From an uncultured Geobacter sp. (GTDB lineage: Bacteria; Desulfobacterota; Desulfuromonadia; Geobacterales; Geobacteraceae): a DNA stretch of 41,596 bases. Positions 323 to 17,833 of this stretch are shown one piece after another (position 1 is the first letter of the stretch; every line of letters begins with the position of its first letter). Under the pieces are notes generated by a model. It was not told the origin of the DNA. It worked only from the letters and a program-made list of their open reading frames with translations, and ran no database searches. A program made the translations under genes and the position numbers. The DNA is taken from the NCBI GenBank assembly GCA_903925075.1, contig CAIYDQ010000049.1:1-41596 (forward strand). The letters are read 5' to 3'.

Positions 323-586
323 GTGCGGACAGTAACTGCTACCGATTTTGCAAGGCATTTCCGAGCCATGCTTAACCGGGTCGAATTCCAGCGCGAAGAG
401 TTGTTGATTGTGCGCAACAACGCACCCGTTGCGCGGCTGGTTCCAGGGCCGGCTACCATGACGGCAGCGGAGGCTTTTTCCGATCTCCATAATATCCTCC
501 CCAAGGAAGCGGGCGAGACGTGGCTTGCGGACAGTCGTATCGATGACGAAGGGATCGACGAGGTGCGCGACCCGTGGGCGTCTTAA
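323..586 (+). CDS. Antitoxin of a type II toxin-antitoxin pair (Phd/YefM/VapB-like)
   Basis: An 87-residue protein starting at GTG 323, chosen because GGAGG lies five bases upstream; an in-frame TTG at 251 would add 24 residues without a better ribosome-binding site. The N-terminus (TVTATDFARHF) and the central ELLIVRNNAPVARLVPG segment match the Phd/YefM fold, in which the N-terminal half dimerises and binds operator DNA while the acidic C-terminus wraps the toxin. The C-terminus is acidic (DEGIDEVRD), as expected for the toxin-binding tail. The stop overlaps the next gene by 13 bases, so translation is coupled to the PIN toxin. It would neutralise the toxin and autoregulate the operon through the palindrome at 304-316. 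The family is a confident call; the exact subfamily (Phd or VapB) is less so. Confidence 0.85.
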   Translation: MRTVTATDFARHFRAMLNRVEFQREELLIVRNNAPVARLVPGPATMTAAEAFSDLHNILPKEAGETWLADSRIDDEGIDEVRDPWAS

Positions 587-2948: not shown

Positions 2949-3002
2949 AGCCTGATCGGGAGGCCGCCGGGGAATCGAAGTTAGCTGGGGAATCGGCGTG
3001 CG

Positions 3003-3170
3003 TCAAGTCCCGAAGAGGCTTGGGGTGCAGATGTATCTATGGTTGTGCGAGGGATCGTCGCAGGGCAGGCAGGCGAAATCGCTCGTCCGTGCCCGCTCGA
3101 TGGCACAACCGTTCAGATTTAACGAACACATGTGCTCGTAATGCGCCATGCTGTTGCAGCATTTTTCCAT
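3003..3170 (-). CDS. Small cysteine-rich protein of unknown function (55 aa)
   Basis: A 55-codon ORF on the minus strand, divergent from the IclR gene. It starts at ATG 3170 with AGAGGTG six bases upstream. It has seven cysteines (residues 4, 5, 15, 22, 34, 37, 48). The second half carries a CLPC pair, then HNHRYIC, a Cys/His pattern typical of a small metal-binding or redox protein. There is no signal peptide or membrane segment. A TATAAT-like box lies upstream at 3217-3222 (minus strand), without a clear -35. I do not recognise the family. Its place next to the regulator and the bam operon hints at a link to aromatic metabolism, but that is position only. An overlapping 52-codon frame (3037-3195, minus) has a stronger GGGAGG box but an unremarkable composition; I prefer the Cys-rich frame. 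Confidence 0.6.
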   Translation of the reverse strand: MEKCCNSMAHYEHMCSLNLNGCAIERARTSDFACLPCDDPSHNHRYICTPSLFGT

Positions 3171-3245
3171 ATAGTTCACCTCTTTCTACTGCCATTTAAC
3201 CTCCCGTTACTTTTCCATTATATGCTTTTTCTCATATAGGGGGAA

Positions 3246-3260
3246 GCGCCGCCTCGGCGC
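3246..3260. repeat. Short GC hairpin in the divergent intergenic region
   Basis: GCGCCG and CGGCGC pair perfectly around CCT. It lies between the divergent Cys-rich ORF and the IclR gene. Its function is unknown; it could shape the leader of either transcript. Confidence 0.3.
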
Positions 3261-3309
3261 CGCCTGCCCCTTACTTTCGGCTTTGGTGAAAAAGCTGGCG
3301 TCGGCGACA

Positions 3310-3326
3310 ATGAAATGGTATTTCAT
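3310..3326. promoter_or_regulatory. Palindrome upstream of the IclR gene, candidate operator
   Basis: ATGAAAT-GGT-ATTTCAT is a perfect 7-bp inverted repeat 49 bases before the IclR start. Its core (GAAAT..ATTTC) resembles the GGAAAT/ATTTCC arms of known IclR-family operators, though the spacer is longer. IclR-family proteins often autoregulate from such sites. Binding is inferred. Confidence 0.4.
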
Positions 3327-3335
3327 AGGATAAAA

Positions 3336-3353
3336 CCGGCGACGCTTCGCCGG
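3336..3353 (+). repeat. Leader hairpin before the IclR gene
   Basis: CCGGCGA and TCGCCGG form a perfect 7-bp stem around CGCT, ending 21 bases before the start codon. It would fold in the mRNA leader. No U-run follows, so it may affect translation or stability rather than termination. Confidence 0.35.
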
Positions 3354-3374
3354 ACTGAAAGGATATCTGCGCAC

Positions 3375-4178
3375 ATGGCCGAATCGACGCCTCAGAGTCA
3401 GACCAAGGACGACGACAAGTACAACATCAGGGCGGTAGAGCGGGCGCTTTCGCTTTTGGACGTCTTCTCGCGCGAGCGCAGGAAATTGACGCTTGACGAG
3501 TTGACCAAGCTCTCCGGCCTCTCCAAGCCCACCGTTTTCCGCCTCCTCTCCACGCTGCAAAACCATCGCTACATTCTCACCGACAAGAGCGACGGGCGTT
3601 ACCAGCTAAGCTCGGTCTTTCTGGCGCTCGCCTCCTCGGCGCTGGTCTCGTTCAACCTGGGCACGGTGACCCGGCCCCATCTGGTCGAACTGCGCAACAA
3701 GGCGCAGGCCACCGCGCTTTTGGGCGTGCTGGTGGAAGACCGCCTGGTGTATCTCGACAAGCGGGAAGGGAAGGGGCCGGTGAGGCTTGCCGCCGACATC
3801 GGCTGGCGGCGCGATCCTCCCAACTACGGGATGCTCGGCATGACGCTCATGGCCTATCTTGATCCCTCCGAAGCGGATCGGCTGCTGGCGGAGTACCCCC
3901 TGTCGGGTTACACGCGCAAATCGATCACCGATATGCTTTTGTTCAAGCATCGTCTGCAGGAGATACGCGAGCGCGGCTACACGGTGGAGTTCGGAGAGGC
4001 GATCGAGGGGGTGTGGGGCGTGGCCGCGCCGGTTTGGAACTCGGATCGCGAAGTCGTCGCCGCAGTCGGCGCGGCACTCCCTATGACAGTGATAAACAAC
4101 GAACGCATAGCCGAAGCCATCAAATTGGTCAAGTCCTGCGCCAACGACATCTCTTCGTCACTGGGACACAGGGATTAA
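3375..4178 (+). CDS. IclR-family transcriptional regulator
   Basis: A 267-residue regulator, the usual IclR length. I choose ATG 3375; an in-frame start at 3315 lacks a ribosome-binding site and falls at the leader palindrome. Residues ~17-75 form the winged helix-turn-helix (AVERALSLLDVF, then LSGLSKPTVFRLLSTL as the recognition region). Residues ~90-260 form the effector-binding domain, with VYLDKREGKGPVRLAADIG and the C-terminal GVWGVAAPVWNSDREVVAAVG segment typical of the family. IclR proteins act as dimers or tetramers on palindromic operators and often control aromatic catabolism. The gene directly precedes the bam operon on the same strand, so benzoyl-CoA or another aromatic acyl-CoA is a plausible effector. 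That is inference: nothing in the sequence identifies the ligand or shows whether it activates or represses. Confidence 0.9.
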   Translation: MAESTPQSQTKDDDKYNIRAVERALSLLDVFSRERRKLTLDELTKLSGLSKPTVFRLLSTLQNHRYILTDKSDGRYQLSSVFLALASSALVSFNLGTVTRPHLVELRNKAQATALLGVLVEDRLVYLDKREGKGPVRLAADIGWRRDPPNYGMLGMTLMAYLDPSEADRLLAEYPLSGYTRKSITDMLLFKHRLQEIRERGYTVEFGEAIEGVWGVAAPVWNSDREVVAAVGAALPMTVINNERIAEAIKLVKSCANDISSSLGHRD

Positions 4179-4272
4179 AAGCATTCAACCCGGGCACAAA
4201 AATCAACCAGGCAAAAGCAATTTAACAGGGATACAACGGATACAGGGGATAAGTCCAGGATCAGAATCAGGC

Positions 4273-4290
4273 TTTTGGTTTAAACCAAAA
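4273..4290. repeat. Perfect 18-bp palindrome
   Basis: TTTTGGTTTAAACCAAAA is fully self-complementary. A half copy (TTTAAACCAAAAAGCC) recurs at 4435-4450. It seems part of the repeat element rather than a free-standing operator, but a protein-binding site is possible. Confidence 0.55.
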
Positions 4291-4293
4291 CCT

Positions 4294-4327
4294 GTAAAAC
4301 GAAAACAGGGGTAAAACGAAAACAGGG
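4294..4327. repeat. 17-bp perfect tandem duplication
   Basis: GTAAAACGAAAACAGGG occurs twice with no spacer (4294-4310 and 4311-4327), inside the repeat element. Confidence 0.7.
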
Positions 4328-4577
4328 TCTAACAAAAAATCTTGTCTTGTCTCAACAGTCGTGTCCTCGTTTCATCCCCTGCATCTGTTTCATCCCTGTT
4401 AAGGCCTTTGACTTTGTTTTGGTCCGGCCCTTGATTTAAACCAAAAAGCCTTGTTTTGTCTTCGTTTTATCCCTTGTATCCGTTGCATCCCTGTTAAAGC
4501 TTTTGACGTATCCCCTGCCTCCGTTTTATCCCTGTTAAACTCTGTGACCCTTGCGCATCCCTGTACAAAAAAAGTTG

Positions 4578-4607
4578 TTGACAACATCGTTATATTTTCG
4601 GTATTTT
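4578..4607 (+). promoter_or_regulatory. Candidate sigma-70 promoter of the bam operon
   Basis: A perfect TTGACA (-35, 4578-4583) is followed after 18 bases by TATTTT (4602-4607, four of six matches to TATAAT). GTTGT-TG-ACAAC (4574-4585) forms a small palindrome over the -35, where a regulator could block polymerase. A transcript from here would have a leader of about 195 bases before bamB1. The -10 is weak, so activation or another promoter is possible. Confidence 0.4.
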
Positions 4608-4623
4608 AGTACGTAAAATTACA

Positions 4624-4638
4624 TTTCACAGAGTGAAA
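4624..4638. promoter_or_regulatory. 15-bp palindrome just downstream of the putative promoter
   Basis: TTTCAC-AGA-GTGAAA is a perfect inverted repeat, placed where a repressor would overlap the initiating polymerase. IclR-family operators have this size, so it is a candidate site for the adjacent regulator. It does not match the palindrome at 3310-3326 beyond the GAAA/TTTC theme. Confidence 0.4.
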
Positions 4639-4808
4639 CGAAAAAGGGCGCAGTGCAGGTGGGAAAAATGGGCTGTCGGCCGGACGGAAGGTGTCCCGGC
4701 AGAGTTTATAAAAATTAAGTGGTATTGCGGTACCGGATTGCGAGTTAGTGGCTTTTGGCAGGTCTTGACCGGAGTCTGCATTCAGACAACTTGAGAAGGA
4801 ATACGCTT

Positions 4809-6788
4809 ATGAGGTATGCAGAGACAGGATTTGATTTGGAAGTCGACTTGACCCGCGGCAACATCGAGCGAGTGGCCACCGCCCCGGAACTGACGGCTCT
4901 CCACCTCGGCGGCGAGGGCGCTGCCGCCAAGGAACTGTGGGACCGCGTCCCTCCCGAAGTCGACCCGTTTTCTCCCCGCAACCTGCTGATTTTCAGCGCC
5001 GGCCTCTTGCACGGCACGCCGGTCCCCGGCGCCAACCGCACCTGCGTCAGCACCATCAGCCCGCAGACCAATCTGTACGTGACCTCCGGGTTCACGGGGT
5101 TCTTCGGGCCGGAACTGAAGCATGCGGGCTACGACCGGATCATCATCCGCGGCAAGTCGCCAAGCCCGGTCTATCTCCATATCCGCAACGACAAGGTGGA
5201 ACTGCGCGACGCCACGCACCTGGTGGGTAAAAGCGCCCTGGAAACCTCGGCGCTGATCAAGGACGAGATGAAGGAGGCCAAGCTCCAGGTGGCGGCCATC
5301 GGTCTCGCCGGCGAAAACCGCGTCTGTCAGGCGACCATCGACCACGCCAACACCAGCGCCTCGCGCGGGGTGGGGGTGGTGATGGGGGACAAGGGGCTGA
5401 AGGCGATAGCGGTGCGCGGCACCAAGGACATCAACGTCGCCCGCCCCGCCGAACTGTTTGAGCGCTGCAACGCCATGTACCAGGAAATCTACGACAACCC
5501 CCGCTGCGGGGACGCCTTCTTGAGCGAGGCCGACGACTCCTGGCAGGTTAAAAACATCGCCGCCGCTGGCGGCGCGCTCGGCGGGGTCAAGGGCTTTTGG
5601 ACCAAGGAGCTGCAGGACGAGTGGACGGTGCGCGTGGAAAGCGAGCACATGCACTTCCAGTGGGAAAACTACAGCCAGCAGATGGAAGAGGTGCACGAGA
5701 CGGTGGTCGACGAAAGCAAGCGGCTGCGCGGCACCGGCTGCTTCAACTGCACCAAGAACTGCCACGAGGCGGTCTATCTGCCGGGGCAGCGCCAGTATTT
5801 CCTGAAAAGCTACAGCAAGCTCGCCTATGCCACGGCGGCCTATGCGGACCTGAAGATCAATTACGACGTGCTTTTCGGGATGCAGGAGTACGGTCTGGAC
5901 GAATCGGCCACCTTGCAGGCGGTAAGCTTCGCGCTGGAGCTGCGGCAGGCGGGCATCCTGACCGACGCGGAGCTGCCGGATTTCCCGGCCGACGGCCCGG
6001 GGCGCTGCGGCTATCTGCTGGAAAAGATCGCCACGCGCCAGGGGATAGGCGACGCCCTGGCGGACGGCGTGCATCTGGCGGCCGCTCGGATCGGCAAGGG
6101 GGCCGAGGCCTTTGATCGCAGCGTGAAAAAGATCGAGCAGCTCCCTCTCAACGAGGAGCAGCTCGATTACCCGCACTTTCTCATGTACGCCACCGGCGCC
6201 AAGATGGGCATCACCCAGATCGAAGGCTCTTTTCCGCAGTTCCCGATCGCGGACAAGCAGCAGAGGGCGGCTTTCGTGGCCGCCTGGGACGCGGCTCCGG
6301 AGCGGTTCAAAATCTGGTTCCTGGAGTGGGAGCCGGGGGCGCAACTTCCGGTGGAGGCGGCGGTCGACATCGCCGACTGGAACGAGGCGATGCACAGCGC
6401 CGACGACGCGATCGGGATCTGCCCGCTGTTGTCCTCCTTTAGAGGCCAGTTCGGCGGCAGGCCCCCCTATCACCTGCACAACCTCCCCGCCTTCATCACG
6501 CTCGCGACCGGCCTGGAGCTCGACGCCGAGGGACTTTTGGAGATAGCCAAACGGAACCGGCTACTGGTGCGAGCCATCAACGCGCGCCGGGGCGTTACCA
6601 GGGGCGACGAGCAGGCGCCGGCCGGCCTGTACGGGAAGGGCGAACCGGAGACCGAGCAACGGCTGCTCGACGCCTACTACGCCTTCAGGGGTTGGAACGG
6701 CGACGGCGTGCCGAGCGCAGAGACGCTGGACGGATTGGGCTTGAGGTACGTGCGGGAAGATTTGGCGCAGAGGGGGATCTTGAAATGA
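4809..6788 (+). CDS. bamB: BamB-like tungsten aldehyde oxidoreductase-family protein, divergent copy (BamB1)
   Basis: A 659-residue member of the aldehyde:ferredoxin oxidoreductase family, to which the active-site subunit of class II benzoyl-CoA reductase belongs. I start it at ATG 4809 (GAGAAGGA nine bases upstream). The N-terminal half carries the cofactor-binding fold (LHGTPVPGANRT, GLKAIAVRGTKD). C311, C314, C318 (GCFNCTKNC) and C538 (GICPLLSSF) are the [4Fe-4S] ligands. Compared with the next gene it has about 28 extra residues at ~278-306. It also lacks residues I equate with the BamB active site: the NEGFH segment reads DDSWQ (His to Gln246), the YFLKC cysteine is Ser334 and a second cysteine is Ala341. 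So cofactor and cluster binding look intact but ordinary benzoyl-CoA chemistry is doubtful. It overlaps bamB2 by four bases (ATGA), so both are made together. It may use another substrate or play a structural role. Confidence 0.85.
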   Translation: MRYAETGFDLEVDLTRGNIERVATAPELTALHLGGEGAAAKELWDRVPPEVDPFSPRNLLIFSAGLLHGTPVPGANRTCVSTISPQTNLYVTSGFTGFFGPELKHAGYDRIIIRGKSPSPVYLHIRNDKVELRDATHLVGKSALETSALIKDEMKEAKLQVAAIGLAGENRVCQATIDHANTSASRGVGVVMGDKGLKAIAVRGTKDINVARPAELFERCNAMYQEIYDNPRCGDAFLSEADDSWQVKNIAAAGGALGGVKGFWTKELQDEWTVRVESEHMHFQWENYSQQMEEVHETVVDESKRLRGTGCFNCTKNCHEAVYLPGQRQYFLKSYSKLAYATAAYADLKINYDVLFGMQEYGLDESATLQAVSFALELRQAGILTDAELPDFPADGPGRCGYLLEKIATRQGIGDALADGVHLAAARIGKGAEAFDRSVKKIEQLPLNEEQLDYPHFLMYATGAKMGITQIEGSFPQFPIADKQQRAAFVAAWDAAPERFKIWFLEWEPGAQLPVEAAVDIADWNEAMHSADDAIGICPLLSSFRGQFGGRPPYHLHNLPAFITLATGLELDAEGLLEIAKRNRLLVRAINARRGVTRGDEQAPAGLYGKGEPETEQRLLDAYYAFRGWNGDGVPSAETLDGLGLRYVREDLAQRGILK

Positions 6789-8710
6789 GGTACGCAGAGA
6801 CCGGCTTTAACTTAGAAATTGACCTCACCCACGGGACCGTCAAGCGGGTGGCGACCGACGCCAAACTGACCGAGCTCTACCTGGGCGGGCAGGGGACTGC
6901 CGCCAAGATCCTGTGGGACAACGTGCCTCCCGAGGTCGCGCCGCTTTCCCCGGAGAACATGCTGATCTTCAGCACCGGCCTTTTGCACGCCACGCCGGTT
7001 CCGGGCGCCAACCGCACCGCGGTCAGCACCTTTTCGCCCTTGACCAACCTGTACGTGAATTCGCTGATGGGCGGCTGGTTCGGGCCGGAATTGAAGCACG
7101 CCGGCTACGACAAGATCGTGCTCAAGGGCAAGTCCCCGAAGCTCGTCTATCTCTGGATCAACAACGACCGGGTGGAGATCCGCGACGCGGCTCATCTGAA
7201 GGGCAAGGGGGTCCAGGATACCGCGGCGCGCCTGAAGGAGGAGCTGAAGGACGCCAACATCCAGGTGGCCGCCATCGGCCTTGCCGGCGAGAACATGGTG
7301 CACATGGCCAGCATCGAGCACCTGAACTCCAGCGCGGCGCGCCACGGCGTGGGCGCGGTCATGGGGTCCAAAGGGCTGAAGGCGATCGCGGTGCGCGGCA
7401 CCAAGGACGTCTACGTCGCCAAGCCGGCCGAGCTCTGGGCGATGTGCAACAGCAAGTACCAGGAGATCCACGACAATCCCAACGCCGGCGACCCGATGGC
7501 GCACGACCACAACGAGGGGTTCCACGTCGACAACTTCGCCTGGGGCAACGCGCGCACCCGCCGGCCCGGCTATTGGAACAAGGAGCGCGAGGAGGAGTGG
7601 GTGGCGCTGTGGAAAAAGGTGCGCACCCGCGACTCGGGCTGCTTCAACTGCCCCAAGACCTGCCACTACACCATTTCCTATCCGGGGCGGCCGACCTATT
7701 TCCTGAAATGCTTCTCCAAGCTCACCTACTGCATGGCGGCCTTCGAGGAGATCGATTTCAATTACGACATCCTGGGCGTCACCAGCGCCTACGGTCTGGA
7801 CGGCTTCTCGACGCCGCAGGTGCTGGCCTTCGCCGTCGAGCTCTACGAAGCCGGCATCCTGACCGACGAGGATCTGCCGGGCTTCCCCTCCGATTCGCCG
7901 GGGAGGTTCTTCTACCTGGTCGAGAAGATCGTGCATCGCGACGGGATCGGCGACGTGCTGGCCAACGGCGTCTACGCCGCGGCCCGCATCATCGGCAAGG
8001 GCGCTGAGGTCTACGATCACAACACCACCAAGAAGGTCGAGCAGGTGCCCCTGAAGCTGGGCGTGGTCAACTATCCCTTCTTCCTCATGTACTGCACCGG
8101 CGAGAAGATGAACATCACCCAGATCGAAGGGTCCTTCCCGCAGGCGCCGCTGGCCGACAAGGAGAAGCGCAAAAAGTTCGTGGAGAACTGGGACGCGGCG
8201 CCGGAGCGGTTCAAGAAATGGTACGCCGAATGGGAACCGCGCGAGCACATGCCCATCGAGGCGGCCGTCAACGTTTGCGACTGGAACGAGGCGATGCACT
8301 ACGTCGACGACTCCATCGGCACCTGCGCCTGGCTCTCCTCCTTCCGGGGGCAATTCGGCGGCTCGCCTCCCTATCACCTCTACAACCTGCCGACCTTCAT
8401 CACGCTTGCCACCGGCATGGAGATGGACCCGGACAAGCTCCTGGAGATCTCCCGCAGGAACCGCAACCTGGTCAGGGCTCTCAACATCAGAAGGGGCTTG
8501 CGAAGGGACGTGGAGAAGCCGCCCGAGGATCATTGGAAGAAAAGGGACCCGGAGATGGAGCAAAAGCACCTTGACGCTTATTACGACTTCAAGGGGTGGA
8601 CCAACGACGGCATCCCCACCAAGGAGACCTTGGATCTATTGAAGTTGGATTTCGTCAGCGAAGACTTCGTCAAGAGGGGAATCTTGGCAGCCAGCGAAGC
8701 CACTCCCTAA
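6785..8710 (+). CDS. bamB: Benzoyl-CoA reductase class II, active-site subunit BamB (BamB2)
   Basis: A 641-residue tungsten-bis-metallopterin protein of the aldehyde:ferredoxin oxidoreductase family, starting at ATG 6785 inside the stop of bamB1. In the cytoplasmic Bam complex, BamB reduces the aromatic ring of benzoyl-CoA to cyclohexa-1,5-diene-1-carbonyl-CoA without ATP. [4Fe-4S] ligands are C286, C289, C293 (GCFNCPKTC) and C514 (GTCAWLSSF). The segment HNEGFHVDN (E244, H247) and C309 in YFLKCFSK have the spacing of the catalytic Glu/His pair and the tungsten-ligating cysteine of the G. metallireducens enzyme (numbering there recalled from memory). It is therefore the likely functional BamB. 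The family length is about 650 residues, so it is full length. BamC follows after 51 bases. Confidence 0.93.
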   Translation: MRYAETGFNLEIDLTHGTVKRVATDAKLTELYLGGQGTAAKILWDNVPPEVAPLSPENMLIFSTGLLHATPVPGANRTAVSTFSPLTNLYVNSLMGGWFGPELKHAGYDKIVLKGKSPKLVYLWINNDRVEIRDAAHLKGKGVQDTAARLKEELKDANIQVAAIGLAGENMVHMASIEHLNSSAARHGVGAVMGSKGLKAIAVRGTKDVYVAKPAELWAMCNSKYQEIHDNPNAGDPMAHDHNEGFHVDNFAWGNARTRRPGYWNKEREEEWVALWKKVRTRDSGCFNCPKTCHYTISYPGRPTYFLKCFSKLTYCMAAFEEIDFNYDILGVTSAYGLDGFSTPQVLAFAVELYEAGILTDEDLPGFPSDSPGRFFYLVEKIVHRDGIGDVLANGVYAAARIIGKGAEVYDHNTTKKVEQVPLKLGVVNYPFFLMYCTGEKMNITQIEGSFPQAPLADKEKRKKFVENWDAAPERFKKWYAEWEPREHMPIEAAVNVCDWNEAMHYVDDSIGTCAWLSSFRGQFGGSPPYHLYNLPTFITLATGMEMDPDKLLEISRRNRNLVRALNIRRGLRRDVEKPPEDHWKKRDPEMEQKHLDAYYDFKGWTNDGIPTKETLDLLKLDFVSEDFVKRGILAASEATP

Positions 8711-8761
8711 AAGAGAGCTCGGCGGGAAGAGAAGAGAACAACAGTCAAGGGGGTAGCAGCC

Positions 8762-9298
8762 GTGAGCGGTCAAGCGAAGAAAAAGATAGTCAAAGAGATC
8801 AAGGTCGACGTGGAGAAATGCATCGGTTGCCGCGCCTGCGAGGTTGCCTGCTCCGGATTTCACGCCAGCCCCAAATACAGCAGCTTCAATCCGGCGCGCT
8901 CCCGCATCCGGGTGGTGCTCGATCTGCCCAGCGACGTCTACGTGCCGCTGCGAGCCGGCGAGTACACCGCGGCCGAGTGCACCGGCAGGCAGACCTTCCG
9001 CATCAATGGGAAAAATTATTCCGAGTGCAGCTTCTGCCCGGCGTCCTGCCCCTCCAGGGACCTGTTCAAGGAGCCGGATTCCGGCCTCCCCCTGAAATGC
9101 GACATGTGCGAGGACGAGAAGATCCCGATGTGCGTGCAGGTCTGCCGTCCGGGCGCCTTGACCTACGAGGAGCGGGAAGAGGAGCGTGACGACGAGCCGA
9201 CGCCGGGCGAAGTGGAGATCGGGCTGCAGGCGCTCCTGCACCGGCACGGGGCGCAGAAGGTGAAGGATACCTTCGCCCGCCTGTCGCAGGGAGAGTAG
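8762..9298 (+). CDS. bamC: Benzoyl-CoA reductase class II, ferredoxin-like subunit BamC
   Basis: A 178-residue Fe-S protein starting at GTG 8762 behind a G-rich ribosome-binding site (AAGGGGG). Eleven cysteines are spaced as in DMSO-reductase/HycB-type four-cluster ferredoxins: C20-C23-C26-C30 (CIGCRACEVAC), C89-C92-C96 (CSFCPASC) and C113-C116-C124-C128. This matches BamC, which partners BamB as a heterodimer and carries electrons from the rest of the complex to the tungsten subunit through about three [4Fe-4S] clusters. The acidic C-terminal tail (EEREEERDDE) is a possible docking surface. It lies 51 bases after bamB2 and is separated from bamD by 237 bases holding an inverted-repeat element. 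Confidence 0.92.
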   Translation: MSGQAKKKIVKEIKVDVEKCIGCRACEVACSGFHASPKYSSFNPARSRIRVVLDLPSDVYVPLRAGEYTAAECTGRQTFRINGKNYSECSFCPASCPSRDLFKEPDSGLPLKCDMCEDEKIPMCVQVCRPGALTYEEREEERDDEPTPGEVEIGLQALLHRHGAQKVKDTFARLSQGE

Positions 9299-9330
9299 AC
9301 GGACGGCTTCCTGGTTGGGGGAGTAAAACC

Positions 9331-9465
9331 GTAGGTTGCGTTGAACGGCTGCTTCGTGAAACGCAACGTTGGGCCGGCGCCATCACGGCAACTGCTCCGT
9401 GAAACGTGACATTGTGCCCCGCGCCAACATGACAACGTCGCGTTTCGTGCCTCAACGCGACCTAC
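9331..9465. repeat. Inverted-repeat element between bamC and bamD
   Basis: The ends are imperfect inverted copies. The left end starts GTAGGTTGCGTTGA and carries GAAACGCAACGTTG further in. The inverse of the right end starts GTAGGTCGCGTTGA and carries GAAACGCGACGTTG. A third partial copy (CGTGAAACGTGACATTG) lies in the middle (about 9399-9415). At 135 bp with no coding capacity, it looks like a REP- or MITE-type repeat. It would form a large hairpin in the operon mRNA, 70 bases before bamD. Confidence 0.65.
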
Positions 9466-9535
9466 AGAACTACAGAACTGCCTGCCGTTTTTTCGGATCA
9501 GGACGCTACCTCGCACCATAAAGGGGATCATAAAA

Positions 9536-10687
9536 GTGGAAACTGTCGCCCCGTTCAAAGAGATCATCGACGTCATCAAAGAGGAAGGCGGCGACGCCTT
9601 CAAATATTGCTACCAGTGCGGCAAGTGCGATACGGTCTGCCCGTGGAACAGGGTCAGAAAGTTCAGCATGCGCAAGCTGGTCCGGCAGGCGAGCCTCGGC
9701 CTCACCGAGATCGAGAGCGAGGACATCTGGCGCTGCACCACCTGCGGCAAGTGCCCGGCAAACTGCCCGCGCGGCGTGAAGCAGATCGAATCGGGCGTGG
9801 CCCTGAAAAGGATCGCCACCCAGAACGAGGTCTTCCCCGCCGCCGTCGAGCCGATCCGCACGGTGAGCGTCGGCCTCATGGGCGAAGGAAACCCCTTCAA
9901 CGACGAGCGCAGCAAAAGGGGGGACTGGGCGCAGGGGCTGTCGGTAAAGCCGTTCAAGAAGGAGATGGAGGTCCTCTATTTCTCCTGCTGCTACTTGAGC
10001 TACGCGCCCAGGCTGAAGAAGGTGGCTGCGGCCACCGCCAAGATCCTCAATAAGGCGGGGGTGAAATTCGGCATCCTCGGCTCCAAGGAGAGCTGCTGCG
10101 GCGAAAGCATCAGAAAGACCGGCAACGAGGATCTGTTCAAACGCCTGGCCACCGACAACATCAAGGCCTTCATCGACAACGGCGTCAAGAAGGTCCTGGT
10201 CTCCTCCCCGCACAGCTACCATACCTTCAAGAACGAGTACCCCGAGTTCATGGTGAACTTCGAGGTGGTCTACATCACGGACTACCTGAACGAGCTGATC
10301 AAGGCGGGGAGGCTCAAGATCGACAAGGAGTACGCCAAGAAGGTCACCTATCACGACCCTTGCTACCTCGGCCGCCATAACGGCATCTACGATCAGCCCC
10401 GCGAGATCCTGAAGGGGATACCGGGCCTGGATCTGGTGGAGATGGCCGACAACCGGCAAAACAGCCTCTGCTGCGGCGGCGGGGGGGGGAGGATCTGGGT
10501 GGAAACGCCCAAGGAGGAGAGGTTCTCCGATTTGAGGGTGGGGCAGGCCGTCAAGGCCGGGGCCGAGGTGCTGGCCACTTCCTGTCCTTATTGCATCACC
10601 AACTTCGAGGACAGCAGGCTCTCTCTTGAGGAGGGGACCGTCCTCGAGATCAAGGACATCACGGAAATTCTCCAGGAACTCATCTAG
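9536..10687 (+). CDS. bamD: Benzoyl-CoA reductase class II subunit BamD (HdrD/HdrCB-like)
   Basis: A 383-residue soluble protein starting at GTG 9536. The N-terminus has two [4Fe-4S] motifs, C25-C28-C31-C35 (CYQCGKCDTVC) and C67-C70-C73-C77 (CTTCGKCPANC). Two CCG domains follow (SCCYLSY with SKESCCGE, then CCGGGGGR with CPYC), which in heterodisulfide reductase hold the non-cubane clusters. The order matches HdrC+HdrB in one chain and BamD in Geobacter. In the Bam complex it is thought to pass or bifurcate electrons between BamE and the BamBC unit; its exact acceptor is not settled. The 3' end has been tandemly copied (10672-10759), so its stop codon sits in the first of four 22-nt repeats. 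Confidence 0.92.
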   Translation: METVAPFKEIIDVIKEEGGDAFKYCYQCGKCDTVCPWNRVRKFSMRKLVRQASLGLTEIESEDIWRCTTCGKCPANCPRGVKQIESGVALKRIATQNEVFPAAVEPIRTVSVGLMGEGNPFNDERSKRGDWAQGLSVKPFKKEMEVLYFSCCYLSYAPRLKKVAAATAKILNKAGVKFGILGSKESCCGESIRKTGNEDLFKRLATDNIKAFIDNGVKKVLVSSPHSYHTFKNEYPEFMVNFEVVYITDYLNELIKAGRLKIDKEYAKKVTYHDPCYLGRHNGIYDQPREILKGIPGLDLVEMADNRQNSLCCGGGGGRIWVETPKEERFSDLRVGQAVKAGAEVLATSCPYCITNFEDSRLSLEEGTVLEIKDITEILQELI

Positions 10688-10759
10688 GGAATTCCGGAAC
10701 TCATATAGAGAACGGCAGGAACTGATATTGGGAACTCCAGGAACTCATCCAGGGAACCG
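10672..10759 (+). repeat. Four 22-nt tandem repeats covering the bamD stop and the bamD-bamE gap
   Basis: Copies lie at 10672-10693, 10694-10715, 10716-10737 and 10738-10759. The common core is a GGAACTCAT-like block followed by a GGGAAC-like block. The first copy includes the last codons and stop of bamD, so the array looks like successive duplication of the gene's 3' end. It accounts for most of the 98-base gap. The transcript would carry many GGA motifs just before bamE; whether anything binds them is unknown. Confidence 0.8.
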
Positions 10760-10785
10760 AAGACACCTTTAAAGGGACGCTCACA

Positions 10786-13700
10786 GTGGACAATCAAATT
10801 GCACAGAAAAACTTTATCGATGTTTTGGTGGTCGGCGGCGGCATCAGCGGCATTCAGGCCGCGCTCGATCTTGCCAATACCGGTTTCAAGGTGTACCTGA
10901 TCGACAAGTCGCCGGCCATCGGCGGCAAGATGTCGCAACTGGACAAGACCTTTCCCTCCAATGACTGCTCCATGTGCATCGAATCGCCCAAGTTCATCGA
11001 GTGCAGCCGGCATCCGAACATAGAGATCATGACCTATACGGAGGTCGACAGCGTCAAGGGGAAGGCCGGCAACTTCAACGTGACGCTGGTGAAAAAGCCC
11101 CGGTACGTCATCGAGGAGAAATGCACGGGGTGCAATATCTGCAAGGAATATTGCCCGGCCAAGATCGCCGATCCCTACAACCAGAACATCTCCGACAACA
11201 AGGCCATTCACATCTATTTCTCGCAGGCGGTGCCGCTGATCCCTTACGTCGATCCGGACGCCTGCCTGTTCCTCAAAGACGGGTCGTGCACCATCTGCGA
11301 AGGGGTCTGCAAACCCAACGCCATCGATCTCCACCAGGAACCGGAGCTTTTGAACGTGCAGGTGGGCGCCATCGTGCTGGCCCCTGGCTTCGAGACCTTC
11401 GACCCGAAGCTTAGAAACGATTACGGCTACGGCGTCATCGAAAACGTGGTGACGAGCCTCGATTACGAGCGCATCCTCTGCTCCACCGGTCCCTACGAGG
11501 GGACCATCCGGCGCCCTTCCGACCTGAAGCACCCGGAGAAGATCGCCTGGATCCAGTGCGTCGGCTCCCGGCAGGTGAACCCGGAGGGTGGAAACAGCTA
11601 CTGCTCGGCGGTCTGCTGCGCCTACACGCAAAAACAGGTGATCCTCACCAAGGACCATGACGCCGGCATGGAAGCCACCATCTTCCACAACGACGTGCGC
11701 GCCTTCGGCAAGGATTTCGAGCGCTTCTACCAGAGGGCGGCCAACCTCCCGGACGTCAGGTTCATCAGGAGCTACGTCTCGATCGGCGAGGAGAACCCGG
11801 ACAACCAGAACGTCAGCATCCGCTACTCGACCTTCGAGGACGGCGTGAAGGAAGAAGAATTCGACCTGGTGGTGCTGTCGGTCGGGCTCAATCCCCCGGC
11901 GGGCGCGCTGGAGCTGGCCAAGACCTTCGACATCGAGTTGAACGCCCACGGCTTTTGCAAAACCAACCCGGTCAACCCCATCGAGACCACCCGCGAGGGG
12001 ATCTTCATCAGCGGCGCCTTCCAGGGGCCGATCGACATCCCCGAGTCGGTGATGACCGCCAGCGGCGCCGACGCCCTCTGCAGCCAGCTCCTTTCCTACC
12101 GGCGCGGCGAGCTCTCGCAGGACCGCGTCTATCCGCCGGAAAAGGACGTCTCGCAAGAGGAGCCCAGGGTCGGCGTGTTCGTCTGCCTGTGCGGCGCCAA
12201 CATCGGGCGGGTGGTCGATACCCCGGGCGTGGCCGAATACGCCAGGAGCCTCGGCAACGTGGTCTACGCCCAGGAGAGCCTCTTCGCCTGTTCCACCGAC
12301 AACGCCCAGCAGGTGGCGGACATGATCAAGGAGAAGGGGCTGAACCGCGTGGTGATGGCGGCCTGCACGCCGCGAACCCACGAGCCGCTGTTTAGGGACA
12401 CCTGCCGCGAGGCGGGCCTGAACCCGTATTTCTACGAGATGGCCAACATCCGCGAGCATTGCGCCTGGGTCCACTCCAAGGACAAGGACGGTGCCACCAA
12501 GAAGGCCAAGGAAATCGTGCGCATGTCTGTTGCGAGGTCGGCCCTTTTGGAGCCGCTCGACGAGATCCAGCTGCCGCTTAACAAGGCGGCCGTGGTGGTC
12601 GGAGGAGGCGTGGCCGGCATGACCACCGCCCTCAGCATGGCCAACCAGGGCTTCGAGATCTATCTGGTGGAAAAGGCCGGCGATCTCGGGGGGATGGCCA
12701 GGCGGCTTTATTACACCATGGACGGCGTCGAGGTGCAGCCCTATCTGGACGAGCTGGTGAAGAAGGTCTACCGGCACCCGGCCATACACGTCGCCACCGA
12801 CGCGGTGATCACCGATGTCTCCGGTTACGTGGGGAGTTTCGTCACCAAGGTGCAGAGCGAGGGGAGGGTCAAGGAGATACGCCACGGCGCGGTGGTGATC
12901 GCCACCGGCGCCCGGGAATACCAGCCCACCGAGTACCTTTACGGTCAAAACGACCAGGTGCTGACCCAACTGGAGTTGGAAGAAAAAATCGCCAAAGGCG
13001 ACGAGCAGGTGCGCGGCGCCCAGAGCGTGGTGATGATCCAGTGCGTGGGCTGCCGGGAAGAAGGGAAGAATTACTGCAGCCGGGTCTGCTGCAGCCAGTC
13101 CATCAAGAACGCCTTGAAGCTCAAGGAAGCGAACCCCGAGATGGACGTCTACGTCATCTACCGGGATATGAGGACCTACGGCTTCAAAGAGGATTTCTAC
13201 CGGGAAGCGGCCAACAAGGACGTCAAGTTCATCCGCTACGAGCCGACCGACAAGCCGGTGGTCGAGGCGGCCATGGAGGGGGGGCAGCCGATCGTCCGGG
13301 TCACCGTCACCGATTACGTGCTGGGTCAGAAGATCTCCATCGACGCCGACCTGCTGGCCTTGGCCGCCGCCGTGGTACCTTCGGCGTCGGGTCAGGAGGT
13401 AGCCAAGCAGTTCAAGGTCGCCCTGAGCCCGGACGGCTTCTTCCAGGAGGCCCACGTCAAATTGCGGCCGGTCGACTTCGCCGCGGACGGCATTTTCCTC
13501 TGCGGCCTGGCGCACTATCCAAAGCACATGACCGAGACCATCAGCCAGGCTTACGGGGCCGCCGGGCGGGCGATCAGCCTTCTTTCCAAGAAGTTCATCA
13601 CCGCCTCGGGCGCGGTTTGCGAGGTCAAGGACGACGACTGCGTCGCCTGTGGGGCCTGCATCACCGCCTGTAAGTACGACGCCATCGAGCTGCAGGAGAC

Positions 13701-13863
13701 CTCCTACGGCAAAAAGGCCGTGGTCAATCCGGTGCTTTGCAAGGGCGACGGCCTGTGCAACACCAAGTGCCCCACCGGCGCGGTGTATCTGAAGCATTAC
13801 ACCAACGAGGAGATCTGGTCGCAGATCGACGCCGCGCTGCCCGAGTTGGAAGAGGCGATTTAA
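10786..13863 (+). CDS. bamE: Benzoyl-CoA reductase class II subunit BamE (HdrA-like, FAD and Fe-S)
   Basis: A 1025-residue HdrA-type flavoprotein starting at GTG 10786. A first FAD site begins near residue 14 (VVGGGISGIQAAL, then IDKSPAIGGKMSQLD). [4Fe-4S] motifs follow at C113 onward (CTGCNICKEYC) and a further Cys-rich stretch (CTICEGVC). A CLCGANIGR segment at ~465 is typical of HdrA. A second dinucleotide fold starts near 602 (VVVGGGVAGMTTAL, EKAGDLGGMARR). The C-terminus has two ferredoxin motifs (CVACGACITAC from 952, then CKGDGLCNTKC). In Hdr complexes the HdrA flavin is the bifurcation site; BamE is thought to play the equal part between BamF-I and BamD. It is longer than simple HdrA (~650 aa) because of the extra N-terminal flavin module, as expected for BamE. 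bamF starts 25 bases later. Confidence 0.93.
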   Translation: MDNQIAQKNFIDVLVVGGGISGIQAALDLANTGFKVYLIDKSPAIGGKMSQLDKTFPSNDCSMCIESPKFIECSRHPNIEIMTYTEVDSVKGKAGNFNVTLVKKPRYVIEEKCTGCNICKEYCPAKIADPYNQNISDNKAIHIYFSQAVPLIPYVDPDACLFLKDGSCTICEGVCKPNAIDLHQEPELLNVQVGAIVLAPGFETFDPKLRNDYGYGVIENVVTSLDYERILCSTGPYEGTIRRPSDLKHPEKIAWIQCVGSRQVNPEGGNSYCSAVCCAYTQKQVILTKDHDAGMEATIFHNDVRAFGKDFERFYQRAANLPDVRFIRSYVSIGEENPDNQNVSIRYSTFEDGVKEEEFDLVVLSVGLNPPAGALELAKTFDIELNAHGFCKTNPVNPIETTREGIFISGAFQGPIDIPESVMTASGADALCSQLLSYRRGELSQDRVYPPEKDVSQEEPRVGVFVCLCGANIGRVVDTPGVAEYARSLGNVVYAQESLFACSTDNAQQVADMIKEKGLNRVVMAACTPRTHEPLFRDTCREAGLNPYFYEMANIREHCAWVHSKDKDGATKKAKEIVRMSVARSALLEPLDEIQLPLNKAAVVVGGGVAGMTTALSMANQGFEIYLVEKAGDLGGMARRLYYTMDGVEVQPYLDELVKKVYRHPAIHVATDAVITDVSGYVGSFVTKVQSEGRVKEIRHGAVVIATGAREYQPTEYLYGQNDQVLTQLELEEKIAKGDEQVRGAQSVVMIQCVGCREEGKNYCSRVCCSQSIKNALKLKEANPEMDVYVIYRDMRTYGFKEDFYREAANKDVKFIRYEPTDKPVVEAAMEGGQPIVRVTVTDYVLGQKISIDADLLALAAAVVPSASGQEVAKQFKVALSPDGFFQEAHVKLRPVDFAADGIFLCGLAHYPKHMTETISQAYGAAGRAISLLSKKFITASGAVCEVKDDDCVACGACITACKYDAIELQETSYGKKAVVNPVLCKGDGLCNTKCPTGAVYLKHYTNEEIWSQIDAALPELEEAI

Positions 13864-13888
13864 ATCCACTGTTAGAAAGGAGACGAGC

Positions 13889-14656
13889 ATGAATGCAGGC
13901 CTTGAGTTTAAGCCGCGAGTAGTTGGCTTCTTGTGTACTTGGTGAGCGTACGGCGCTGCCGACCTGGCTGGAGTTTCCAGACTGCAATATACAACTGAAA
14001 CAAAGATTATCCGCGTCATGTGCTCGGGCCGAGTCGATCTGGACTTCGTGCTGCGCGCTTTCTCCAAGGGTGCGGACGGCGTGTTCGTCGGCGGCTGCTG
14101 GCTGGGCGAGTGCCACTACGTCACCGAGGGGAATTACGACGCCCTGAGCATGATGCACCTGGCCAAAAAGGTGATGGAACAGATCGGGGTGAACCCGGAC
14201 CGCTTGCGGCTGGAATGGATCTCCGCCTCCGAGGGGATGCGCTACGCCGAGGTGATGAACGACTTCGGCAAAAAACTCAAGGAGATGGGACCGATCGGCG
14301 AGGGCGAGGGGCTGGAGAAAAGCGCCCTGAAGCTCAAGTTCCAGGCGGTCAAGAAGCTCCTCCCCTTCCTCAAGTTGGTGGAAAGGGAGCGGCTGCGGGT
14401 GAAGTTCAAGACCGAGGAAGAGTACAGCGAGTTCTACAACAGCCCCGAGGTGGACGGCCTGATCCGCGAATTGATCGGGGAAAATCTGGCGATCAGCCAG
14501 ATCACCACGCTTCTGGCGAGAAACCCGCTTTCCACCAGGGAGATCGCCGAGGTTCTGAAACTGGCGCCGACCGAGGTGGGGAGATGCCTCAACATCTCGG
14601 CCAGGCAGGGGCTGATCAGGTACGATGAGAGCCAGAAACGCTACGCCATGGCCTGA
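13889..14656 (+). CDS. bamF: Benzoyl-CoA reductase class II subunit BamF, selenoprotein (MvhD-like)
   Basis: The reading frame opens at ATG 13889 behind AAGGAG and meets an in-frame UGA at 13943-13945 (codon 19). It then stays open to 14656, giving 255 residues if UGA is read as selenocysteine. Around it the protein reads FLCTW-U-AYGAADLAG, the MvhD/HdrA-associated motif in which the U position is normally cysteine. C45 (MCSGRVD), C70 and C75 (GGCWLGECHY) complete the Fe-S ligand set. BamF of Geobacter is a known selenoprotein, so this is translation, not a broken gene. MvhD-type subunits carry electrons by a [2Fe-2S] cluster between the hydrogenase or NADH module and HdrA, here between BamG-I and BamE. 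The last ~100 residues form a helix-rich extension with a helix-turn-helix-like end. Gene callers that ignore Sec will start it at ATG 14018 or miss the N-terminus. Confidence 0.92.
13943..13980 (+). promoter_or_regulatory. Selenocysteine UGA codon and putative SECIS hairpin of bamF
   Basis: UGA at 13943-13945 is followed after 22 bases by CTGGA-GTT-TCCAG (13968-13980), a perfect 5-bp stem with a GU-containing loop. The 27-base distance from UGA to the apical loop, and a G at the first loop position, fit the usual bacterial SECIS layout for SelB binding. No SelB or selenocysteine-synthesis genes are in the window. Confidence 0.7.
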
Positions 14657-14701
14657 TTCGAGACACGGGACTAACTGAAAGATAGAAGAGGGCCGCAAGC
14701 T

Positions 14702-15154
14702 ATGGATTTCCAAAACATCGACCAGATTATCGATAAGCACGGGTGCAAAGCCAGTTCGCTCATCCAGATATTGCTCAATATCCAGAGCGAGAACCATTGG
14801 CTCCCCAAGGAAGTACTGGAGAGGGTCAGCCAGAGGCTGGACGTGCCGATGAGCCAGGTTCAGCACATAACCACCTTCTATAAATCCTTCAGCATGGTTC
14901 CCAAGGGACGCCACGAGGTTCACGTCTGCATGGGTACCGCCTGCCACGTGCGCGGCGCGCAGCGGGTGCTGGACGCGGTCGAGGAGCAGATCGGCATCAA
15001 GCCGGGGGAAACGGACGTGGACCTGAAATTCAGCCTGGAAACCGTCAACTGCATCGGCTGCTGCGCGCTGGGGCCGGTGATGGTGGTGGACGGCGAGTAT
15101 CACGGCAACCTGGCCCCCGCCCAGTTGGAAGGCGTGTTGAAAAACTACGAGTAG
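14702..15154 (+). CDS. bamG: Benzoyl-CoA reductase class II subunit BamG (NuoE-like)
   Basis: A 150-residue thioredoxin-fold [2Fe-2S] protein of the NuoE/24-kDa family. The ligands are C76 and C81 (CMGTAC) and C117 and C121 (NCIGCCALGPV), the exact C-x4-C...C-x3-C spacing of the family. The N-terminal helical part (LIQILLNIQSENHWLP and MSQVQHITTFYKSF) is also characteristic. With BamH and BamI it forms an NADH-dehydrogenase-like module of the Bam complex. The ribosome-binding site is GAGGG, about ten bases before ATG 14702. The gene lies 45 bases after bamF. Confidence 0.92.
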   Translation: MDFQNIDQIIDKHGCKASSLIQILLNIQSENHWLPKEVLERVSQRLDVPMSQVQHITTFYKSFSMVPKGRHEVHVCMGTACHVRGAQRVLDAVEEQIGIKPGETDVDLKFSLETVNCIGCCALGPVMVVDGEYHGNLAPAQLEGVLKNYE

Positions 15155-15220
15155 GCTAGATAAGCGGAAAACCGGTCCACTCTTTAGTTTCGAGTCTGCA
15201 GTATCTAGAAGGGAACCTTT

Positions 15221-17134
15221 ATGCCAAAGATAAATTCCTCCGCCGAATTGGAAGCTTTAAGGAAGGACGTCCTCTCCTCCAGGGATCCGCTCAAGCCCTG
15301 CATCGCCGTCTGCACCGGCTCGGGCTGCCTCGCCCTGGGCGCGGCCAACCTGGTCACCGCCCTGAGAGAGGAGATCGCGGAGCAGGGGGTGGAAAGCCGC
15401 ATCGACATCAGGGAAACGGGGTGCCCCGGTTTCTGCGAGCGGGGTCCGCTGATCGTCGTCTATCCCGACGAGACCTGCTACCTGAAGGTGCAGCCCTCGG
15501 ACGCCAAAGAGGTGGTGCAGAGCGTCCTGGAAAAGACGGTGATCGACCGGCTGCTCTACGTCGACCCCGCCACCGGCGAGCGGCTGGTCCACGAGATGGA
15601 CATCCCCTTTTACAAGAACCAGCAGCGGCTCTTGATCGGCAACAACATAAAGTTGGACCCGACCAGCATCGAAGACTACCTGGCGGTCGGGGGCTACGCC
15701 GCCCTGGAAAAGGTCGCCTGCCGGATGAAGCCCGAAGAGGTGGTGGCGCTGGTCAAGGAATCGGGACTGCGCGGCCGCGGGGGGGGCGGCTTTCCTTCCG
15801 GCAGCAAGTGGGAATTCACCCGCAACAGCCCCGACCCCGTGAAGTACGTGATCGTCAACGCCGACGAGGGAGACCCGGGTGCGTTCATGGACCGGGCGCT
15901 GCTCGAAGGGAGCCCGCACGCGGTGCTGGAAGGCCTGATCATCGGCGCCTACGCCATAGGCGCCCATCACGGCTATCTGTACGTGCGCCAGGAATATCCC
16001 TTGGCGGTGGAGAACATCACGCTGGCCATCAAGAAGGCCGAAGAATACGGCTTCATCGGCAAAAACATCCTGGGCTCCGGCTTCGACTTCGAGGTCGAGG
16101 TGGCTCAGGGGGCCGGCGCCTTCGTCTGCGGCGAGGAAACGGCGCTGATCCGGTCGCTGGAAGGAAAGGCGGGAGAACCGAAGCCCCGCCCTCCTTTCCC
16201 CGCGGTGCGCGGTCTCTGGGACAAGCCCACCAACATCAACAACGTGGAGACCTGGGCCAACATCCCGCTGATCATCAACAACGGGGCGGCCGCCTTCGCC
16301 TCGATCGGCACCGCCGGCAGCAAGGGGACCAAGATCTTCTCCCTGGTCGGCAAGGTGAAGAACACCGGCCTCGTGGAAGTCCCCATGGGGATCACGCTCA
16401 GGGACATCGTCTACAAGATCGGCGGCGGCATACCCGGCGACAAGAAGTTCAAGGCCGTGCAGACCGGGGGACCCGCGGGCGGCTGCATGCCCGAGTCGCT
16501 TTTGGACATGGAGGTCGATTTCGACCAGTTGACCAAGGCCGGCTCCATGATGGGTTCGGGCGGCATGATCGTTTTGGACGAAGAGACCTGCATGGTGGAC
16601 TTCGCCCGGTTTTTCCTGGCCTTTCTGGCCGACGAGTCCTGCGGCAAATGCGTCCCCTGCCGCGAGGGGATCCAGCAGATGCTGACCATCGTCACCGACA
16701 TCACGCAAGGGAAGGGGCGCGAGGGGGACCTGGATCTCTTGGCGCAACTGACCGAGGTGTCGGGGGCATCGCTTTGCGCCTTGGGCAAGGGCGCGCCCAA
16801 TCCGGTGTTGAGCACCATGAAGCACTTCCGGGACGAGTACGAGGCCCACATCGCGGGGAGGTGCCCTTCTTTTTCCTGCAAGGAGCTGATCGCCTTCTAC
16901 ATCGACCCGGACAAGTGCCAGGCGTGCACCAGTTGCGCCAGGAAATGCCCGGCGACGGCGATCGAAGGGGGCAAGAACCAGATCCACGTGGTCGACCAGG
17001 CGAAATGCACCAAGTGCGGCTCCTGCCTGGAGGCGTGCCCGCCGCGCTTCGGAGCGGTAAAGAGGATTTCCGGCGAGCCGCTGCCGCCCCCTTTGCCTAA
17101 GGACGCGCGCACAGTTGCCAGGGGGAGCAAATAG
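15221..17134 (+). CDS. bamH: Benzoyl-CoA reductase class II subunit BamH (NuoF-like, FMN and Fe-S)
   Basis: A 637-residue NuoF/HndC-type flavoprotein. Residues 1-110 are a thioredoxin-like [2Fe-2S] domain (C31-x4-C36, C68-x3-C72). The FMN/NAD(H) domain follows, with GRGGGGFPSGSKW near 184 and ADEGDPGAFMDRALLEG after it, then an SLBB domain. SCGKCVPCREG (cysteines from 474) binds the N3-type [4Fe-4S] cluster. The C-terminus is a two-cluster ferredoxin (CQACTSCARKC from 566, then CTKCGSCLEAC). This matches BamH and the hydrogenase/formate-dehydrogenase NuoF variants. The sequence predicts NAD(P)H or ferredoxin as redox partner; which one serves the Bam complex is not settled. bamI begins two bases after its stop. 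Confidence 0.93.
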   Translation: MPKINSSAELEALRKDVLSSRDPLKPCIAVCTGSGCLALGAANLVTALREEIAEQGVESRIDIRETGCPGFCERGPLIVVYPDETCYLKVQPSDAKEVVQSVLEKTVIDRLLYVDPATGERLVHEMDIPFYKNQQRLLIGNNIKLDPTSIEDYLAVGGYAALEKVACRMKPEEVVALVKESGLRGRGGGGFPSGSKWEFTRNSPDPVKYVIVNADEGDPGAFMDRALLEGSPHAVLEGLIIGAYAIGAHHGYLYVRQEYPLAVENITLAIKKAEEYGFIGKNILGSGFDFEVEVAQGAGAFVCGEETALIRSLEGKAGEPKPRPPFPAVRGLWDKPTNINNVETWANIPLIINNGAAAFASIGTAGSKGTKIFSLVGKVKNTGLVEVPMGITLRDIVYKIGGGIPGDKKFKAVQTGGPAGGCMPESLLDMEVDFDQLTKAGSMMGSGGMIVLDEETCMVDFARFFLAFLADESCGKCVPCREGIQQMLTIVTDITQGKGREGDLDLLAQLTEVSGASLCALGKGAPNPVLSTMKHFRDEYEAHIAGRCPSFSCKELIAFYIDPDKCQACTSCARKCPATAIEGGKNQIHVVDQAKCTKCGSCLEACPPRFGAVKRISGEPLPPPLPKDARTVARGSK

Positions 17135-17136
17135 CC

Positions 17137-17736: not shown

Positions 17737-17773
17737 GCGGCAGCTTGGAATCCATGATTAATCGTTAGCGTCC

Positions 17774-17803: not shown

Positions 17804-17833
17804 ATGGTTCTCGGCCGCCGCAGCCGCCCGGCG

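Follow-up and report, generated by a model that had tools for sequence, protein, structure and literature searches.

In a 41,596-nucleotide contig of an uncultured Geobacter sp. (CAIYDQ010000049.1; hereafter, the window), two tandem bamB genes stand at the head of an operon for a class II benzoyl-coenzyme A (CoA) reductase. The product of the first gene, BamB1, lacks the residue equivalent to Cys322, the tungsten ligand of Geobacter metallireducens BamB, while the product of the second, BamB2, retains it. The explanation that we lean towards on the sequence evidence is that BamB1 is a BamB pseudo-subunit, which would have given up benzoyl-CoA reduction and been kept as a noncatalytic partner of BamB2. 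The parts of this explanation that the sequences show are the loss of the ligand residue, the degeneration of the active-site loop, the pairing of the two genes, a new conserved insert, the retention of cluster cysteines and cofactor motifs, and purifying selection. The following features are concerned:

4809 to 6788, + strand: bamB1, encoding a BamB paralogue of 659 amino acids (aa) without Cys322; 638 bits in phmmer against Protein Data Bank (PDB) entry 4z3w
5544 to 5546, + strand: Gln246 codon, at the position of G. metallireducens His260; His in 8 of 10 B1 proteins
5628 to 5702, + strand: B1-only insertion of 25 residues (~274 to 298, core motif QWENYSQ), preceding the [4Fe-4S] motif
5739 to 5762, + strand: [4Fe-4S] ligand motif C311-x2-C314-x3-C318, with C538 as the fourth ligand, by alignment
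5808 to 5810, + strand: Ser334 codon, at the position of the tungsten-ligating Cys322, by alignment
6785 to 8710, + strand: bamB2, encoding 641 aa, with C309 at Cys322 and H247 at His260; 818 bits in phmmer against 4z3w

Active-site residues and the insertion of BamB1

An initial annotation of the window had given the boundaries of both genes, their ATGA overlap (6785 to 6788), the product lengths of 659 and 641 aa, and the residues C311/C314/C318/C538, Q246, and S334 of BamB1 and C286/C289/C293/C514, H247, and C309 of BamB2, all of which were verified. By sequence (638 bits) and fold [Foldseek template modeling (TM) score of 0.91 to 4z3w, the G. metallireducens protein], BamB1 is a BamB with the [4Fe-4S] ligands in place. 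When the proteins are aligned to 4z3w, S334 of BamB1 occupies the position of Cys322 and Q246 that of His260; both Cys322 and His260 are present in BamB2.

BamB1 was compared with its counterparts in nine other genomes (together, the B1 proteins) and with 192 rows of other BamB-family sequences. Of these rows, 91 came from a second draw, made from the phylum (89 loci, part of the matches listed), that partly overlaps the first. Position 322 is Ser in six of the 10 B1 proteins, Asn in four, and Cys in none. Outside the B1 clade, Cys322 is present in all 192 rows (91 of 91 in the phylum draw alone), and after removal of near-copies both Cys322 and His260 are kept in each of the 177 distinct proteins. 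At least two changes between Ser and Asn at position 322 are needed on the tree, and such alternation appears odd for a metal ligand. A sequencing or frame error was ruled out, since the changes recur in ten genomes. His260 is replaced by Gln in two B1 proteins (from the window and from genome G030) and retained in the other eight, and its loss was therefore rejected as a mark of the clade. Of the Zn-site and proton-relay residues Glu251, His255, Glu257, and His260, the window BamB1 has none in the alignment (Asp is found at 257 and Gln at 260).

The first three [4Fe-4S] cysteines are present in all 10 B1 proteins and in all 192 other rows; the fourth (C538) is present in 10 of 10 and 191 of 192, respectively. 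R77, K333, D364, D532, and G536 are also found in every B1 protein. We take the cofactor roles of R77, D364, D532, and G536, as well as the pterin contacts, to be those known from aldehyde oxidoreductases (AORs). Column 96, presumably one of these pterin contacts, is Gly in 192 of 192 other rows, and five of the 10 B1 proteins have Glu, Thr, or Ala there. Column 94, mostly Met or Leu elsewhere, is Gly, Ser, or Asn in B1 proteins. The initial annotation had also treated the loss of the next cysteine (A341) as a sign of an altered site; this loss means little, because A341 aligns to G. metallireducens Thr329, in a column that is variable across the family. As to other residues that might take over the metal or proton-donor positions, a possibility raised in the same annotation, the sequence alignment revealed no clade-wide Cys or His substitutes. 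In the B1 protein of locus L009 alone, a Cys is located two residues past position 322.

These substitutions bear on the possibility of BamB1 being a working tungsten or molybdenum enzyme whose metal coordination is altered (by Ser/Asn or with no protein ligand) and which acts, in the same complex, on a different substrate, perhaps another aryl-CoA or an aldehyde. The initial annotation had proposed a reductase for a different aryl-CoA, an idea disfavored by the Ser/Asn alternation and by the low conservation (0.56) of the pocket loop. The broader proposal is consistent with purifying selection on BamB1 (see below), with retention of the cluster and the main cofactor motifs, with His260 in eight of the 10 proteins, and with the fact that AORs function without a protein ligand to tungsten (PMC12096430). 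The tungsten enzymes AOR, FOR, and WOR5 share their superfamily and fold with BamB1; unlike them, BamB1 is located in a bam operon, and it scores at most 194 bits against them compared to 638 bits against BamB. We nevertheless consider an active enzyme unlikely, given the Ser/Asn switch with its at least two changes, a pocket loop conserved less than any other 20-residue block of B1, the replacement of Gly at column 96 in half of the proteins, and the absence of 79 internal residues from one member (G030). More doubtful still is a specific variant, in which one bifurcating BamC-I module would feed a mixed B1/B2/C complex and BamB1, holding a tungsten or molybdenum bis-pterin without a thiolate ligand, would run a low-potential reaction there different from that of BamB2. 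If this were true, one Bam complex would contain two unlike active sites linked by one cluster chain.

In BamB2, E244 had been named as the catalytic Glu. It aligns to Glu257, where a Glu is indeed found, and not to Glu251, the substrate-side Glu according to a review (PMC12096430). The Glu251 column is without Glu in BamB2 and its wider clade, where the loop is shorter than in G. metallireducens BamB and the column assignment is unsure. A Glu in this column is likewise absent from 59 of the 177 distinct Cys322-bearing proteins.

The initial annotation had placed an insertion of ~28 residues before the cluster motif of BamB1. The insertion is present; its measured length is 25 residues. The spacing between W272 and C311 is 38 residues in all 10 B1 proteins compared to 13 in 92 of 92 others measured, and none of the 192 other rows, 91 of which were added with fixed columns, has 5 or more residues at this place. 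A DNA pattern derived from the insert matched 10 of the 141 genomes of the order, with no matches for the reversed control. Conservation of the insert block (281 to 300) is 0.87 among nine B1 proteins, G030 being left out.

The AlphaFold2 model of BamB1 (54 aligned sequences) has a mean predicted local distance difference test (pLDDT) score of 82.1 and a predicted TM score (pTM) of 0.87; the BamB2 model, used as a control, reached 88.4 and 0.92. The top Foldseek match of the BamB1 model in the PDB is 4z3w_A (48% identity), with AORs at TM scores of 0.70 to 0.78. The place of the insert corresponds in the BamB2 control to one helix (266 to 279, pLDDT of ~86 to 92); the insert thus appears, in the models, to interrupt the helix leading to the cluster motif. 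In the active-site loop (231 to 260), pLDDT per ten residues is 61, 57, and 49 in BamB1 and 75, 73, and 62 in BamB2.

Pairing, divergence, and probable role of BamB1

A scan of 84,980 species genomes yielded 286 relatives, of which the best 80, in 79 loci, were taken. Among these best 80, seven loci besides the window carry a B1-like gene followed by a B2-like gene, with 64 to 70% identity to BamB1 and 79 to 85% to BamB2. A family search (48 genomes) revealed two further pairs, in G029 and G030; G032 and G035 of that search are, judged by length, the contigs of loci L014 and L013. The tandem pair is thus found in ten genomes (the window genome, G029, G030, G032, G035, G058, G059, G096, G110, and G120), or 10 of 141 in the order. 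Searches with the insert DNA pattern, the BamB1 protein, and the BamB2 protein all converged on these ten genomes, in which B1 coincides with the B2 partner clade (at least 81% identity) over six genera. No B1 gene without a B2 partner and no split pair was found among the 141 genomes of the order. The distribution is patchy overall; of the 19 genomes from the genus of the window, only one has the pair. The BamB2 search also produced matches at 71 to 73% identity in G081, in G110 (a second gene), and on contig C136 of the window genome (G000); in the tree, the C136 gene belongs to another, unpaired B2-like group. In the phylum draw (395 genomes), the best BamB2 match outside the window genome was at 72%.

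Other arrangements of bamB-like genes were observed as well. Locus L153 (G217:C310) carries a tandem bamB pair (5148 to 7127 and 7161 to 9191) whose members share ~49% identity with BamB2 and both retain Cys322 and His260; this represents a separate case of pairing. A Chloroflexota contig (L031:5394-10599) contains bamB, bamC, and two tandem BamB2-like genes, the last one cut by the end of the stretch. Betaproteobacterial contigs, which are unexpected hosts for class II reductases, contain a divergent pair of bamB-like genes (L036, L042, L043, L044, L046, L047, and L061), one of the G. metallireducens type (only its start in L043) and one from a clade with a motif like DWMAVDEDDSFHHNHF.

In the tree, B1 and B2 proteins form clades with full support each. 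The separate clade that the initial annotation had suggested looking for is thus recovered, and the B1 proteins lie apart from the proven BamB enzymes. Both clades belong to a larger group without Glu251, which is set apart from the G. metallireducens type (Shimodaira-Hasegawa-like approximate likelihood ratio test value of 99). An origin of B1 and B2 by direct tandem duplication was considered and left undecided: they are sisters in the best tree, with weak support of 43/54 (G030 B1 excluded), and support is 78 in a larger quick tree.

In each of the 36 genome pairs, which come from nine genomes, identity is lower for B1 than for B2 (means of 0.663 and 0.844); the eight pairs that involve L014 understate the identity of B2. 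Where the synonymous divergence (dS) of a pair is below 1, the ratio of nonsynonymous to synonymous divergence (dN/dS) is 0.11 to 0.18 for B1 and 0.05 to 0.12 for B2. With these values, the constraint on B1 looks looser but real. The difference is uneven and largest in the active-site loop: residues 241 to 260, the His260 loop, are the least conserved 20-residue block of B1 (0.56 compared to 0.94 in B2). Conservation is also lower in blocks 441 to 460 (0.69 compared to 0.97) and 601 to 620 (0.63 compared to 0.96), calculated for nine B1 proteins without G030. Outside the two clades, 200 columns are conserved; 17 of these are altered in at least 5 of 10 B1 proteins and 5 in at least 5 of 9 B2 proteins.

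Lower conservation than B2 in every genome pair, together with a shortened form in G030, is what would be expected if BamB1 were a functionless, decaying duplicate. The G030 protein (L108:2969-4525) has 518 aa and lacks 79 residues within window positions 436 to 528 as well as the last 55; its frame is nevertheless open, and the insert is still present, as are the cluster motif and the fourth cysteine. Decay is very improbable: the frame is open in all 10 genomes, dN/dS stays well under 1, a new element that the relatives examined do not have is conserved, and the gene accompanies bamB2 across six genera.

Gene order around the pair was also compared. In 9 of 10 loci, bamB1 is preceded by an IclR homologue; in the tenth, L027, none is found within 2.9 kb upstream. 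A single bamC follows bamB2 in 9 of 10 loci, and the remaining contig stops inside bamB2. The full bamC-bamI set follows the pair in the window and in G029 (L106), and L010, L013, and L014 agree with this order as far as their stretches extend. In L009, L011, L027, and G030, B1-B2-C has no full set of its own next to it, although L009 retains bamH and bamI. Since several loci lack such a set, B1-B2-C is the conserved unit, and its remaining subunits may be shared with another Bam complex. BamC proteins of the tandem operons have seven clade-specific residues (S2, Q4, G32, F42, F79, P93, and R129), from which we draw no inference, and their alignment contains no insertion mirroring that of B1.

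The position of bamB1 ahead of bamB2, along with a fold and cofactor motifs kept around a degenerate active site, would suit a cofactor-handing chaperone. BamB1 could accordingly assist BamB2 as an assembly factor, as a regulator, or by storing cofactor, without being a stable subunit. This seems rather improbable to us: the cluster cysteines, present in 10 of 10 proteins, suggest a place in electron transfer, and most other bamB loci in our gene maps lack such a partner.

The other option offered in the initial annotation was that BamB1 joins BamB2 in a mixed complex as a structural or regulatory partner. This idea is now better supported by co-occurrence in 10 of 141 genomes, by the single bamC in all nine loci that reach it, and by degeneration of the active-site loop in a protein that preserves its fold, its cluster cysteines, and the main cofactor motifs. 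The solved complex contains two BamB and two BamC subunits, with two tungsten sites connected by eight clusters (PMC12096430). One bamC per B1-B2 pair, together with the pairing itself, makes B1-C-C-B2 the likeliest product. BamB1 would thus stand in for the second BamB subunit of a (BamBC)2-like assembly, where its half-site would be silent and BamB2 would provide the single active site. The iron-sulfur cluster of BamB1 would serve only in docking or in electron transfer towards the BamB2 site, and the insert would contact BamB2, BamC, or another subunit.

Several observations weigh against a noncatalytic BamB1. The mixed complex is predicted from the genes, and the co-occurrence of B1 and B2 is drawn from ten related genomes. 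His260 is kept in eight of the 10 B1 proteins, beyond the needs of a dead site, and a metal cofactor may still bind, because R77, D364, D532, and G536 are kept in all of them. In the G029/L014 pair, dN/dS of B1 (0.110 to 0.115) is no higher than that of B2 (0.089 to 0.119, a value that includes the out-of-frame start of L014 bamB2). The insert (274 to 303) is modeled at pLDDT below 50; it may need a partner for folding. The active-site loop is of only middling confidence in the BamB2 control too, and is therefore uncertain in both models. Last, the bamB1/bamB2 overlap is not universal among the loci. In a draft contig of Geotalea toluenoxydans JCM 15764, bamB2 (L014:10049-11958) is split over two frames.

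Operon and genome context

The window genome comprises 6.55 Mb over 368 contigs, the window being contig C49. An IclR regulator gene precedes bamB1 and bamB2, and bamC to bamI follow, ending at 17736; the set and its order match those of the other bam operon of this genome. The genes flanking the pair are as follows:

3315 to 4178, + strand: IclR-family regulator gene upstream of the operon (Pfam IclR_C and HTH_IclR)
8762 to 9298, + strand: bamC, ferredoxin-like electron-transfer subunit (Pfam Fer4 families)
9536 to 10687, + strand: bamD, with CCG domains and Fer4 (domain matches)
10786 to 13863, + strand: bamE, HdrA-like flavoprotein, start codon provisional (NF040770 HdrA2, 933 bits, below the curated cutoff of 1100)
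13889 to 14656, + strand: bamF, MvhD/VhuD-like, with an in-frame TGA at 13943 to 13945 (sequence match)
14702 to 15154, + strand: bamG, NuoE-like (Pfam 2Fe-2S_thioredx)
15221 to 17134, + strand: bamH, NuoF-like (Pfam Complex1_51K; TIGR01959 below the curated cutoff)
17137 to 17736, + strand: bamI, NuoG-N-like ferredoxin (Pfam Fer2_4)

A separate bam operon on contig C191 consists of bamB followed by bamC to bamI, and the window operon is therefore a second reductase operon and not the sole one. The C191 BamB has Glu251, Glu257, His260, and Cys322, with Thr at 255; a distant AOR match (31%) adjoins its gene. An additional bamB-bamC pair is located on C163. The bamB2-like gene on C136 has no other bam genes within a 20-kb stretch. 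The genome contains 11 matches to the AOR-family C-terminal domain, and close BamB kin beyond the window pair are on C191, C163, and C136.

BamF of G. metallireducens is a selenoprotein. The TGA in the window bamF sits inside VGFLCTW*AYGAADLAG and probably encodes selenocysteine, in which case the frame continues from the upstream ATG. BamF has been described as selenite-binding (PMC13119186).

Searches for regulatory elements gave little. A scan of 3000 to 18500 against Rfam produced no match at the gathering threshold. A pattern for sigma-54-type sites gave 12 matches in the window (up to 2 mismatches) compared to a shuffle mean of 19, which is no excess over chance, and one sigma-70-like site (4578 to 4607) was found where 0.9 are expected by chance. 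Further downstream (20498 to 41169), the window carries genes for a sensor kinase, cheB, cheR, cheA, galE, and a relA/spoT gene with no clear link to aromatics; several frames in this region matched no NCBIfam model.

Known systems and implications

BamB1 resembles G. metallireducens BamB (PDB 4z3w to 4z40) in fold, [4Fe-4S] cysteines, main cofactor motifs, and location in an operon with bamC-bamI. It differs in the absence of Cys322, which is said to be conserved in all predicted BamB sequences (PMC12096430), in its degenerate proton-relay and substrate loop, in its 25-residue insert, and in an identity of only 48%. Tandem bamB genes have been known since 2007, when a second bamC-bamI cluster preceded by two bamB homologues, the arrangement also seen in the window, was reported for Geobacter FRC-32 (Geotalea daltonii) (Butler et al. 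2007, PMC1924859); the text of that report examined contains no active-site comparison of the two homologues. Transcripts of G. daltonii bamB1, bamB3, and bamB4 were measured by quantitative polymerase chain reaction on benzoate (PMC13119186); that naming is unmatched to the genes here, and nothing is drawn from it. In Desulfococcus multivorans, two BamB paralogues of one cluster were both detected in cells and a joint function was speculated (PMC5109826). Unlike in the window, there are two copies each of bamB-D, separated by bamOP, and the paralogues BamB1 and BamB2 are 64 and 79% identical to G. metallireducens BamB. The available parts of PMC11960108, PMC11497800, and PMC13416013 contain nothing on paired BamB. 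We found no mention of Cys322 loss or of the insert in the literature searched, which is weak evidence of absence, as subscription literature was mostly outside the search.

A lineage in which one member of a pair has lost Cys322 represents a natural experiment on the tungsten ligand and on the second half of (BamBC)2. If BamB1 is a silent half-site, a Bam complex would seem to need no more than one active site, and the pair would provide a handle on how electrons of about -650 mV are steered to that site, which is still an open question for class II enzymes. Counts of bamB from genomes and marker surveys also include copies that probably do not reduce benzoyl-CoA.

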